5,469 bases of DNA from Nitrospinae bacterium RIFCSPLOWO2_12_FULL_45_22 (GTDB lineage: Bacteria; 2-12-FULL-45-22), in contig MHDQ01000168.1 of NCBI GenBank assembly GCA_001803565.1, forward strand, positions 1 to 5,469, in the 5' to 3' direction. Made by a program: the position numbers and the translations under genes. How positions within the stretch are numbered: position 1 is the stretch's first letter; each line of letters opens with the position of its first letter. The notes below the pieces were generated by a model. The model did not search any database, was not told the origin of the DNA, and saw nothing but the letters and a program-made list of their open reading frames with translations. Shown piece by piece: positions 1,062 through 5,469 of this stretch.

Positions 1062-3200
1062 TTGTCAGAGGAGATCGTTCTTAGGGTCTCAGAGGCAAAG
1101 AGCCGGGATGTGGGTCGAGGAATAGCCAGGATAGACCCAGCGGATATGGAAATAATTGGCGCCTCAATAGGAGACATAATCGAGATCAAGGGCAAACGGG
1201 GAACCGTAGCCAAACTTATGCCCGCATATCCCGAAGATCGAGGAAAGGATATTATCCAGATGGATGGCCTGATCCGGGAAAATGCCCAGATTAGTCTGGA
1301 TGAGAAGGTATCTATCAGGCTAACGACTTCTAACCCGGCTGAAAGGATAGTCTTGTCTCCTCTGACAGTGATGAGGACTATCCGGGGTGAGAGGGATATA
1401 AAATATATTGGCCGGCTATTAGAAGGAATGCCTTTAGCGGCAGGAGATCGGATAAGGGCTACCCTGTTTGGGGCCCGGGGTCAGGATTTTACTGTCATCT
1501 CCACTGTGCCTAAAGGCCCAGTATTAATATCTTCCCACACTAATATAAGCATAAAAGAAGAGGAGACATCAAAGGAGGGGGGACTCAAGATATCCTATGA
1601 AGATATTGGGGGATTGAGTAAAGAGATCCAGAGGATCCGGGAGATGATCGAGCTCCCCCTGAAATATCCCCAGGTCTTTGAGCGGCTGGGTATTGAGCCG
1701 CCCAAAGGGGTATTACTCCACGGCCCCCCTGGATGCGGTAAGACTCTTATTGCCCGGGCGGTGGCTAATGAGACCGAGGCCTATTTCACCCAATTGAGTG
1801 GCCCGGAAATCATGCATAAGTTTTATGGCGAGAGTGAGGCCCATCTGCGGGGAATATTTGAAGAGGCCAGCCGCCATGCCCCAGCCATTGTCTTTCTGGA
1901 TGAGATAGACGCTATTGCTCCCAAACGGGAAGAGATGGGTGGGGAGCGTCAACTGGAACGGCGGGTGGTGGCCCAGCTCCTGGCCCTGATGGATGGAATG
2001 AACTCCCGCGGCCAGGTCATCGTCATTGGGGCTACCAATATCCCGGATGTATTGGACCCGGCCTTAAGGCGCCCGGGCCGATTTGATCGGGAGATTGCTA
2101 TCAGTGTCCCTGATAAAAATGGGAGGATGGAGATCCTCCAGATTCATACCCGGGGGATGCCCCTCTCTGAGGAAGTAGACCTGGAAAAGTTAGCGGAGAT
2201 TACCCATGGATTTGTGGGGGCAGACCTGGAGGCCCTATGCCGAGAAGCCGCTATGGTAGCCTTACGAAAGATTATGCCTAAAATTGAGTTCGATACCGAC
2301 TATATTCCTTACGAAACGCTGATGGAGCTTCAGGTCACCATGGATAATTTTCTGGAGGCCCTTAAGGATGTTGAGCCCTCGGCCATAAGAGAGGTATTTA
2401 CTGAAATCCCTGACGTGAAATGGGATGAGGTAGGGGGTCTGGTCGATATAAAGAGGCTCTTGAAAGAGACCATTGAGTGGCCGCTCAAATATGCCAAATT
2501 ATTTGAGTACGCAAGCACCAAACCACCCAAGGGATTATTGTTATATGGCCCGCCTGGTACGGGAAAGACCTTGCTGGCCAAGGCCGTAGCCAGTGAAAGC
2601 GAGGTAAATTTTATCTCTATAAAAGGGCCAGCTCTGATGTCCAAGTATGTGGGAGAGAGCGAGAGGGGAGTCAGGGAGGTATTCAAAAAGGCCAGGCAGG
2701 CATCACCCTGCATTGTATTTTTTGATGAGATAGATGCCCTGGCCCCTATTAGGGGGAGGGGAGACTCTCAAGCAACCGAACGCGTAATCTCCCAACTCCT
2801 TACTGAGCTGGACGGGATAGAGGAGCTTAAGGGAGTGGTCATCCTGGCTGCTACTAACAGGCTGGATATTGTTGACCCGGCTTTATTACGTCCCGGGAGG
2901 TTCGATTTTCTCCTGGAGCTGCCTATCCCTGATGAATCTAGCAGATTAGAGATATTTAAGGTTCATACCAGGTGGAAGCCTCTGTCCGAGGACGTTGATC
3001 TGGGGGGCCTGTCCAGGGAGGAAACATCGGGTTTAGTAGGTGCGGATATAGAGTCTATTTGCCGGAAAGCTGCTATGTCAGCCATAAGGGAGTTTATAGA
3101 AAGTAAAACGGATAAAGATATCCAGGATTGCTCTCACTTCAAAATATCAAATAAGCACTTTAAGGAGGCCCTAAAAGAGCATACTAAATCTATAGCATAG
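1062..3200 (+). CDS. CDC48/p97/VAT-type double AAA+ ATPase (unfoldase) in the gas vesicle cluster
   Basis: This 712-residue hexameric ATPase of the CDC48/VCP/VAT family uses ATP hydrolysis to pull proteins apart. Domain order is complete: N-terminal double-psi barrel (about 1-90, [13 protein letters not shown]...GRGIARID), CDC48 domain 2 (about 95-165), ring D1 (from about 177), a linker with the VTMDNF...PSAIRE signature, and ring D2 (from about 452). D1 has Walker A GPPGCGKT 221-228, Walker B IVFLDEID 276-283, sensor-1 Asn326 and arginine fingers Arg337/Arg340. D2 has GPPGTGKT 496-503, IVFFDEID 551-558, Asn599 and Arg610/Arg613. Both rings therefore look active. Pore loops are KFYG (253-256) and KYVG (528-531), aromatic in both rings as in archaeal VAT rather than p97. 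No C-terminal HbYX proteasome-docking motif is present. The TTG start has a strong ribosome site. The position among gvp genes suggests a role in shell-protein assembly, remodelling or turnover. Confidence 0.95.
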
Positions 3201-3213
3201 GAATTTCCATCTT

Positions 3214-3376
3214 GGACACAGATGAACACAGATTTCAATGCAAAATGCAAAATTAGCAATTAGCATTTCAAAATCAATTCCTTCTTGTTAATTGCTAATT
3301 TTTAATTGTTAATTTTGCAATGAAGGCCAAAAGTGTCCCGTGTTTCATCTGTGTGAATCTGTGAAAATCTGTGTCC
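3214..3376. repeat. Nested palindromic intergenic repeat (ACACAGAT-type outer arms, AATTAGCAATTA-type inner stem)
   Basis: This fills most of the gap between the CDC48-type gene and the GvpF/L gene. The outer arms are 10 perfect pairs, GGACACAGAT (3214-3223) with 3367-3376, then after a 3-base internal mismatch 8 more pairs around CACAGATT. The inner stem is 16 pairs with one G:U, bases 3250-3265 with 3286-3301, around a 20-base loop. Related copies of the TGCAAAATT motif lie on both sides. I see no reading frame in it. ACACAGATTT-type palindromes are, from general knowledge, scattered through intergenic DNA of many environmental bacteria. This is therefore probably a copy of a non-coding dispersed element rather than a site specific to this cluster. 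Whether it contains a promoter or weakens read-through cannot be told from sequence. Confidence 0.75.
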
Positions 3377-3400
3377 TAATTAATTTAGGGAGGTAGAGGG

Positions 3401-4468
3401 ATGAAATATGGGCGCTATATCTATGGGGTAATCAATACCAATGAAAAGATAGACTTTGGCGTGAGGGGGATTGGTGAGCATAAAGCCGAAGTCTATACCA
3501 TTACCCATAATGATATTGCTGCGGTCGTTAGCCCTTTTCCCACTGTTCCCTTTAATTCTTTACCCAAAGAGACGATCCTCCTTTATCTAGCTATATACCA
3601 GTCAGTCATTGAGGAAGTGATGAAAAGCTATTATATCATCCCATTAAAATTTGGGACTGTGGCCGTAGATGAAGAGGAGGCAAGGGACATATTGGAGCAG
3701 GGCTATCCCTGCTTTAAAACGGCCCTCCATACTATGGCAGGCAAAATAGAACTGGATGTTGTGGCCTTATGGAGCCAGTTGAATGAGATCTTACAAGAAA
3801 TTGGCAGGAAGGAAGAAATCAAGAGGGTTAAAGAGGAGAGAGCGGCCAACCCCTTTCATCAGGCCTATGAAGACATGATAAAGGTGGGTCAGATGGTTAA
3901 AGCAGCCCTAGACGAACAACGCAGCCGGACCAATCTGGAAATAGTAACGGCCTTAAAGGAGTGTGCTACTGACTTTCGCAGTCACGACCTCCTGGATGAT
4001 TCTATGATAATGAATGCTGCCTTCCTGCTAGATACAGATAAAGAGAGGGTATTTGAGCAGGAGGTTCACGAGTTAAACGCAAGATATGCCGAGCGAATAA
4101 ACTTTAGGGTAGTAGGGCCCCTGCCGCCTTATAGCTTCAGTACCCTGGAAATAAAAAAGCTTGGATTTGAGGTCATAAATGAGGCCAGGAAGACCTTAGG
4201 GTTGGGGGAAGAGGCTACTCTCTCTGAAATAAAGAGGGCCTATCGGCAGTTGACCCAAAATTACCATCCAGATAAACATCCGGGTAATTTAGAAGTCACT
4301 AAACAATTTGGACAGATTAATAAGGCCTACAAAATCCTGATGGATTGCGTTCAGAGTGACTACTGCTCATTTATAAGGCCAGTGGGCAAAGAGGTCCTGC
4401 TAGTAGGACTCGTAGATCGTCCGGATATCAGCCCGGATCAACCAGTAAGCTCAAGCAGGACTATGTGA
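3401..4468 (+). CDS. GvpL/GvpF family gas vesicle protein fused to a C-terminal DnaJ J-domain
   Basis: This is a 355-residue fusion protein. Residues 1 to about 255 are a GvpL/GvpF domain, opening with GRYIYGVI...FGVRGIG, with IIPLKFGTV at about 78-86 and FRVVGPLPPYSF near its end. GvpF/L proteins are assembly accessories that contact GvpA. A complete J-domain follows (about 262-318): EARKTLGLGEEATLSEIK, basic helix II, the HPD motif at 289-291, and helix III INKAYKILMD. HPD is the residue set that triggers Hsp70 ATP hydrolysis, so the J-domain should be functional. The remaining ~35 residues are a variable tail. The ATG start is supported by GGGAGG (3388-3393), 7 bases upstream. Typical GvpF/L proteins lack the last ~100 residues; there is no frameshift or stop between the parts, so this is a true fusion. 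It probably recruits Hsp70 to shell-protein folding. GvpF and GvpL cannot be told apart here. Confidence 0.93.
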   Translation: MKYGRYIYGVINTNEKIDFGVRGIGEHKAEVYTITHNDIAAVVSPFPTVPFNSLPKETILLYLAIYQSVIEEVMKSYYIIPLKFGTVAVDEEEARDILEQGYPCFKTALHTMAGKIELDVVALWSQLNEILQEIGRKEEIKRVKEERAANPFHQAYEDMIKVGQMVKAALDEQRSRTNLEIVTALKECATDFRSHDLLDDSMIMNAAFLLDTDKERVFEQEVHELNARYAERINFRVVGPLPPYSFSTLEIKKLGFEVINEARKTLGLGEEATLSEIKRAYRQLTQNYHPDKHPGNLEVTKQFGQINKAYKILMDCVQSDYCSFIRPVGKEVLLVGLVDRPDISPDQPVSSSRTM

Positions 4469-4477
4469 AAGGGTCTG

Positions 4478-5167
4478 ATGAGGAAATTACTCTATGTGCC
4501 CATTATTCATACTGCACCCGATTTAGGAAGTATTGCGCCATTGATCGAGCAGAGAAGTAGCGAGATATGCGGAAAAGAGCGCTGGGATAAGCATAAAGAG
4601 ACAGTCTACCTATTCTGGGATTCCCTAAGCCGATACTTTGACACGGTAAAAGCCCCTGAGCTTAAGATCTATCAGGACGGTTTAATGGCTTCTGGCGAGT
4701 TAGGCAGAAAGATCATAGAAGAAGGGGCTGCCAGGGGAAGCAAGAATCACCAAATTGTCCTTAAATTGATCCAGAGAGATGGGGAGATCAGGAAGACCGA
4801 GGACGTCTCTCTCCTTAAAAAAGAATATGATTACATCCTCAGATTAGCTCAAACTAAATCCCCTTTTGAAAAAGGGTTGGTCTATTTTGGATATAAGCGT
4901 GATAAGTATAGGCTGCTGGAGGAAAGGGATAAATTTGTGGCCAATACTATTAATGAAACCTTAAAAGAAGGAGAATTTGGGGTTCTTTTTATCGGGGTTT
5001 ATCATGATGTGCTGCACCGGCTTGCCAGAGATATTATTGTCCGGGAAGTAAAAGAAAGGGAGAAGGTGAAGGCCTATTTTGAAGAACTCCTGCACGGAGG
5101 GGATGATGATAGATTTAACCAGCTTGCTGAGTATCTAGCCTCACCCGTGAGCAGTGAATCGTTTTGA
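4478..5167 (+). CDS. Protein of unknown function, weakly TraB/TIKI-like, gas vesicle cluster
   Basis: This 229-residue protein starts 9 bases after the GvpF/L-J gene, with a GAAAGGG ribosome site, so the two are probably co-translated. I do not recognise a named gas vesicle family. It has no signal peptide or membrane helix and looks cytoplasmic. The N-terminus LLYVPIIHTAPDLGSI (4-19, His11) resembles the 'GT.H..P.S' opening of TraB/TIKI/GumN-type proteins. Near the C-terminus, LLEERDKFVANTI (146-158) followed by GVLFIGVYHDV (168-178, His176) resembles their 'R...+A..I' helix and terminal 'G..H' motif. KIYQDGL (63-69) and KGSKNHQ-like GSKNHQ (87-92) are other conserved-looking stretches. The last ~45 residues are charged and helical. 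If the resemblance holds, it may be a metal-dependent hydrolase of that fold, possibly a protease acting in the cluster. This assignment is by eye and tentative. Confidence 0.8.
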   Translation: MRKLLYVPIIHTAPDLGSIAPLIEQRSSEICGKERWDKHKETVYLFWDSLSRYFDTVKAPELKIYQDGLMASGELGRKIIEEGAARGSKNHQIVLKLIQRDGEIRKTEDVSLLKKEYDYILRLAQTKSPFEKGLVYFGYKRDKYRLLEERDKFVANTINETLKEGEFGVLFIGVYHDVLHRLARDIIVREVKEREKVKAYFEELLHGGDDDRFNQLAEYLASPVSSESF

Positions 5168-5176
5168 CATTGTCAA
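5165..5176. repeat. Copy 1 of the palindromic 12-mer TGACATTGTCAA
   Basis: This is the first of two exact copies in the same gap. Its first three bases are the stop codon of the preceding gene. The core TGACA-T-TGTCA is a dyad with a single central base, extended here by one flanking pair (TTGACA-T-TGTCAA). It could be an operator half of a two-site regulator or a duplication flanking the palindromic repeat between the copies. Confidence 0.55.
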
Positions 5177-5188
5177 ATTAGATAAATC

Positions 5189-5305
5189 CTAAATCCTAAA
5201 CAAATTCAAATGACCAAAATTCAAAAGTATAAAAATGGTTTTGAGATTTGGATTTGGGATTTTGATATTGTTTAGGATTTAGTGCTTGGGATTTAGAATT
5301 TGGTC
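5189..5305. repeat. Palindromic intergenic repeat of the AAATCCTAAA type
   Basis: Bases 5189-5203 pair perfectly with 5268-5282 over 15 positions (CTAAATCCTAAACAA arm). A further 5 pairs, 5206-5210 with 5261-5265, lie after a two-base mismatch. An outer related pair is TGACCAAAATTC (5211-5222) against GAATTTGGTCA (5295-5305), inverted and differing by one base. Imperfect extra copies of the AAATCCTAAA/TTTGGGATTT unit occur on both sides. No reading frame is present. From general knowledge this resembles dispersed palindromes of environmental bacterial genomes. It is unrelated in sequence to the palindromes at 641-702 and 3214-3376, so the window holds three different families. The remaining bases to the next gene (5306-5375) contain copy 2 of the 12-mer and a ribosome site. 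Confidence 0.7.
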
Positions 5306-5375: not shown

Positions 5376-5469
5376 ATGGCCGGAGAAGGAAGATATATTT
5401 ATTGCGTAATAGGGACGGATCAAGAGAGAAACTTTGGCCTTATGGGTATTGGCGGTCGGGGGGACGAGG
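5376..5469 (+). CDS. GvpL/GvpF family gas vesicle protein, N-terminal part (3' truncated by window edge)
   Basis: Thirty-one residues are visible, opening MAGEGRYIYCVIGTDQ and continuing NFGLMGIGGRGDE. The G-R-Y-I-Y-x-V-I start and the F-G-x-x-G-I-G turn are the N-terminal signature of GvpL/GvpF and line up with the same positions of the J-domain fusion protein upstream. This is therefore a second paralogue in the cluster. Multiple GvpF/L paralogues per cluster are usual, as they form part of the accessory complex around GvpA. The ATG is preceded by GGAGAGG (5367-5373). It follows a 208-base gap with a palindromic repeat and two 12-mer copies, so it may begin a new transcription unit. Whether it also carries an extra C-terminal domain cannot be seen. 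Confidence 0.9.
   Translation, partial: MAGEGRYIYCVIGTDQERNFGLMGIGGRGDE

Follow-up and report, generated by a model that had tools for sequence, protein, structure and literature searches.

A recurrent fusion of a GvpL/GvpF domain to a C-terminal J-domain in gas vesicle gene clusters, a candidate class C co-chaperone

The window, that is, the whole stretch of 5,469 nucleotides that was analysed, is an entire contig (C168) carrying part of a gas vesicle (gvp) gene cluster. It shares its final 86 bases exactly with the beginning of contig C302, and because of this end identity the two contigs very probably join. Window coordinates given here all refer to the forward strand. The 3' part of a gvpN gene, cut at the contig start (2–445; TIGR02640, 6e-35), is followed by a small AbrB-like gene, a gene for a protein of 111 amino acids (713–1048), a gene for a CDC48-family AAA ATPase (1062–3200; TIGR01243, 4e-294), directly downstream of it the gene that we call gvpF-J (3401–4468), and a gene for a protein of 229 amino acids (4478–5167). 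The 5' start of the next gvpF/L gene (5376–5469) continues on C302, where the gene order is GvpF/L, GvpG, a zinc ribbon protein, a GvpO-like protein, two ArsA-type ATPases, a GvpA-like protein, Hsp20, GvpK, GvpF/L, a second GvpA-like protein, DnaK and Hsp20. The GvpO-like gene was named from its position and likeness, no family match having been obtained for it.

Two genes of the window have no assigned function. The 111-amino-acid gene recurs in related clusters between gvpN and the CDC48 and gvpF-J genes; its product ends in KTMVLDY, and 16 loci encode, near gvpN, relatives whose C-termini are similar (KTMAINY, for instance). The 229-amino-acid gene is present in 19 of 83 gvpF-J loci, and its product matched no Pfam or NCBIfam family. 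That protein has several invariant positions (H11, QDG at 66–68, TE at 107–108, RD at 150–151 and FxGxxH at 171–176) and was modelled with a pLDDT of 91, and a fold search with the model gave no PDB match with an E-value below 0.001; it is possibly an enzyme. The intergenic regions at 3211–3380 and 5171–5300 contain imperfect palindromes and repeats (ACACAGAT / ATCTGTGT; CCTAAATCCTAAA / TTTAGGATTTAG), which are perhaps dispersed repeat elements.

The gvpF-J gene starts with ATG, is preceded by a Shine-Dalgarno-like GGGAGG (3388–3393), and runs as a single open frame of 355 codons, as the initial annotation had described. Residues 4–247 (3410–4141) match the Pfam family GvpL_GvpF (PF06386, E 3.3e-59) with 201.3 bits against a cut-off of 23.6, covering profile positions 1–244 of 245. 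The C-terminal J-domain, which had been expected near residues 262–318, is a significant match to DnaJ at residues 264–315 (4190–4345; PF00226, E 2e-16), with 60.2 bits against a cut-off of 27.8 over profile positions 4–55 of 63, and its HPD motif can be read directly and intact at residues 289–291 (4265–4273). These were the only two Pfam families above cut-off, and a PDB sequence search returned GvpF structures (6l5d, 4qsg) and J-domains. The chain contains no G/F region, no zinc finger and no DnaJ C-terminal domains, which places it in class C of the J-proteins. A frameshift or a chimeric contig is ruled out as the source of the gene, because the same fusion recurs in 78 other loci.

An AlphaFold2 model, built from an alignment of 53 fusions from which the plasmid-borne Octadecabacter row was left out, has a mean pLDDT of 93 and a pTM of 0.85, and both expected folds were recovered in it. 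The model superimposes on Anabaena GvpF over 238 residues (Z 21.1), and its C-terminal part on J-domains over 54 residues at about 1.0–1.1 Å, the DnaK-bound J-domain 5nro_B being among the matches. Three J-domain helices are predicted at residues 256–265, 274–288 and 297–316, with the HPD motif between the second and the third, and they follow the last GvpF strand (249–254) without a linker. Helix IV is absent from the model, where a short strand (332–337) is found instead of the fourth helix of a canonical J-domain. The J-domain had been called complete; this holds for helices I to III and the HPD loop but slightly overstates the case at the end of the chain, and on the model we class the module as a J-domain shortened at its end.

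The fusion had been presented as a trait of this one bacterium. It belongs instead to a widespread GvpF/L subfamily. We scanned genome contigs with an alignment of four fusions as the query and kept the best 80 loci; a scan with one single protein as the query confirmed nothing. A J-domain was detectable behind the GvpF/L domain in 78 of these 80, which carry 28 phylum-level labels, although metagenome bins can be mislabelled and, since the loci were ranked by similarity to the fusions, the set shows breadth and not frequency. A sample of 386 genomes, searched with a query profile that favours fusions, contained 22 with a GvpF/L match, and the fusion was present in 14 of these. Cultured carriers include Ktedonobacter, Dictyobacter, Oscillochloris and Octadecabacter arcticus 238, whose fusion lies in a plasmid-borne cluster and is named in RefSeq as a GvpL/GvpF protein only. 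All 53 fusions of our alignment (A3) matched both Pfam families.

Within the J-domain, the HPD motif shows the highest conservation (71–72 of 73 alignment rows). Among the detected fusions, only L099 and L109 lack it; no J-domain was detected in L104, where a decayed remnant is present. In these Chloroflexi copies (L099:9923-10987, L104:1459-2541 and L109:444-1508), HPD is replaced by QRA, QRQ or QRD, and the cluster DnaK is retained. A further fusion match, at G265:C227:67865-68872 (L116), contains two in-frame stops and is probably a frameshifted or decaying copy. In a quick tree of the GvpF/L domains of 46 fusions and 55 paralogues without a J-domain, 44 of the fusions form one clade (SH-aLRT 99), apart from the J-less paralogues of the same clusters, and the other two are placed just outside it. 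Two changes in the presence of the J-domain are enough to explain this tree, compared with about 33 when the labels are shuffled. This clustering indicates that the J-domain was probably acquired on one or two occasions and has persisted since, in gene clusters where paralogues without it are also encoded.

The DnaK gene of the cluster (L015:7131-8984, on C302) is a second, non-housekeeping Hsp70 gene, encoded within the cluster, since a separate canonical dnaK-dnaJ-grpE-dnaJ set lies elsewhere in the genome, on C256. Apart from gvpF-J, this genome has three genes with a J-domain; it has a single GrpE, and no gvp-linked GrpE was found in it. We saw a gvp-linked DnaK in 11 loci (the window genome, L037, L043, L052 at a contig edge, L068, L090, L091, L099, L104, L109 and L110), usually just behind GvpK, GvpF/L and GvpA. 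Eight of these proteins form one clade, apart from housekeeping DnaKs, when compared with 15 DnaKs of the same and other genomes (support 100/100), and again when compared with 42 others (SH-aLRT 96, in a quick tree with some long branches). By its scores, the window genome's copy is a divergent DnaK: it reaches 783.7 bits against NF001413 (DnaK; cut-off 648), 762.4 against the TIGR02350 prok_dnaK equivalog (below the cut-off of 822.55) and 572.9 against the TIGR01991 HscA equivalog (below the cut-off of 708.55).

Residues R167, Q378, L391, D393 and P419, which form the DnaK side of the HPD and linker contacts (PMC8215388), are intact in all eight gvp DnaKs, that of the window genome included. 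The acidic tail that is present in all housekeeping DnaKs aligned is absent from the gvp DnaKs; in HscA, a short tail has been linked to specialisation for few clients (PMC8215388). At position 70 (E. coli numbering), where seven of the gvp DnaKs have the catalytic K, the window genome's protein has an aligned N, and because a K adjoins this N the alignment there is ambiguous. No consistent charge swap between GvpF-J and the gvp DnaKs was found at the K48–D477 contact. Most fusion clusters showed no DnaK in the available stretch, many being truncated. When 13 other GvpF-J genomes were searched, 12 had one or two DnaKs, none of which the tree placed in the gvp clade, and G175 had none at E 1e-80. 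A dedicated DnaK is therefore optional, and the coupling between the J-domain and the gvp DnaK is not universal, as the Chloroflexi lineage with a decayed HPD and a retained gvp DnaK makes clear.

The best clues to function are this dedicated DnaK, the CDC48 neighbour, and a stand-alone protein of related clusters that resembles the zinc-finger region of DnaJ; the initial annotation had noted none of the three. The last is encoded in 33 of 83 gvpF-J loci and was not found among the gvp genes of the window genome; one such protein, with CxxCxGxG repeats, is encoded at L018:9869-10249 on the reverse strand, where G039 (Ca. Desantisbacteria) has its gvp cluster. The best reading of these comparisons is that GvpF-J is a class C co-chaperone that would load a dedicated or a general Hsp70 onto GvpA or onto some other Gvp client. 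GvpF has been reported to bind GvpA early and transiently, and it has been proposed to chaperone GvpA2 transiently, the binding being through its hydrophobic part (PMC11445434). We suggest that GvpF-J holds its client, a Gvp protein and most likely the aggregation-prone GvpA of the shell, with the GvpF/L domain, and that the rigidly attached J-domain would, via its HPD motif, trigger ATP hydrolysis in an Hsp70. The J-domain would thereby bring ATP-bound Hsp70 next to the client, which the Hsp70 would clamp and keep assembly-competent. The Hsp70 partner is most likely the second DnaK of the same cluster in the window genome, and would be the housekeeping DnaK in clusters that have none of their own. 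ATPase stimulation by GvpF-J, the identity of its client and its pairing with the cluster DnaK are what we infer here.

We lean towards this reading as a whole, in which GvpF-J is a class C J-protein of the gas vesicle assembly line with GvpA as its likeliest client, an HPD-triggered Hsp70, and the partners just proposed. The initial annotation went further and had Hsp70 delivered directly to the nascent vesicle shell. The architecture that it described and its idea of Hsp70 recruitment are well supported, by the HPD that is nearly invariant under 28 phylum-level labels and by the cluster DnaK with its intact J-contact residues; delivery to the shell is still an inference. The presence of an Hsp70 gene in the gvp cluster of this genome suggests a chaperone machine dedicated to the sticky protein of the bubble shell. 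More tentatively, and with a little less than even confidence, we consider that many bacterial gas vesicle clusters encode a self-contained Hsp70 machine made up of GvpF-J, Hsp20, CDC48, in some lineages the tail-less DnaK and in some the DnaJ-type zinc-finger protein, which would pass hydrophobic GvpA on to the growing shell.

Several observations count against the best reading: HPD is lost in L099, L109 and L104 despite their gvp DnaK, helix IV is missing, there is no gvp-linked GrpE, most fusion clusters (many of them truncated) show no DnaK in the stretch available, and position 70 of the window genome's gvp DnaK is ambiguous. The first two would also fit a J-domain that serves for docking or structure and leaves Hsp70 unstimulated, since in those three copies the domain or its remnant stays while its HPD has decayed, and the helices are joined to the GvpF strand without a linker. 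A purely structural role, however, would not need the HPD, which is the very part that is most conserved, and we regard this explanation as improbable.

In other systems, CDC48 and Hsp70 unfold proteins and dissolve aggregates. GvpF-J and CDC48 might extract or disassemble misassembled Gvp proteins or collapsed vesicles, as a form of quality control, rather than feed the shell. The CDC48 gene lies directly upstream of gvpF-J in 54 of 81 loci, with a contig end cutting seven more, and in the 386-genome sample it is present in 11 of the 14 fusion clusters (all three without it are truncated), compared with two of the eight non-fusion genomes. Quality control nevertheless seems unlikely to us: the early and transient binding of GvpF to GvpA that has been reported (PMC11445434) fits assembly, and no protease was seen among the cluster genes scanned in the window or on C302. 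The recruited Hsp70 could also serve a Gvp client other than GvpA, such as a minor shell protein, GvpN or the CDC48 partner. Only one of the several GvpF/L paralogues in each cluster bears a J-domain, so that this copy may have a client of its own, and more than one GvpA-like protein is encoded per cluster. GvpA is, however, the primary partner of GvpF in other systems (PMC11445434), and another client is in our estimation rather unlikely.

With GvpF-J loading Hsp70 onto GvpA as the preferred reading, the conserved fusion, joined in some lineages by its own DnaK, offers a testable ATP-driven mechanism against aggregation of hydrophobic GvpA before it enters the shell. The mechanism might help heterologous gas vesicle expression for imaging, and if the more tentative self-contained machine exists, gas vesicles would have an organelle-dedicated Hsp70 system. 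We found no description of the GvpF-J fusion or of a gvp-linked DnaK in the open-access papers searched; the fusion may be listed in the J-protein catalogue of Barriot et al. 2020 (cited in PMC8215388) or in domain databases. Papers on Psychromonas and Rhodobacter mention DnaJ as a general chaperone only, and the parts of the Octadecabacter genome paper available to us list gvp genes with no mention of a J-domain.

Among known systems, the GvpF proteins of Anabaena and Microcystis (6l5d, 4qsg) share the GvpF/L fold with residues 2–249 of GvpF-J (Z 21.1 and 19.6, with about 22% identity), but they end at the GvpF/L domain and have no J-domain. That ArsA homologues and Hsp20 are encoded among gvp genes has been published (PMC2963123), whereas neither a J-domain fusion nor a gvp-linked DnaK is mentioned in the portion of that paper available to us. 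DjlA resembles GvpF-J in having a C-terminal J-domain, and the HPD half of GvpF-J weakly matches PRK09430, yet DjlA has no GvpF/L domain and no gas vesicle context. The HscB-HscA pair likewise combines a class C J-protein that has a client-specific domain with a specialised Hsp70 that lacks a long acidic tail (PMC8215388). In contrast to GvpF-J, HscB has its J-domain at the N-terminus and a different client domain, and unlike HscA the gvp Hsp70 scores as a DnaK. If our reading holds, the principle of HscB and HscA, in which a J-protein with a built-in client domain works with a specialised Hsp70, would extend to a gas-filled organelle.
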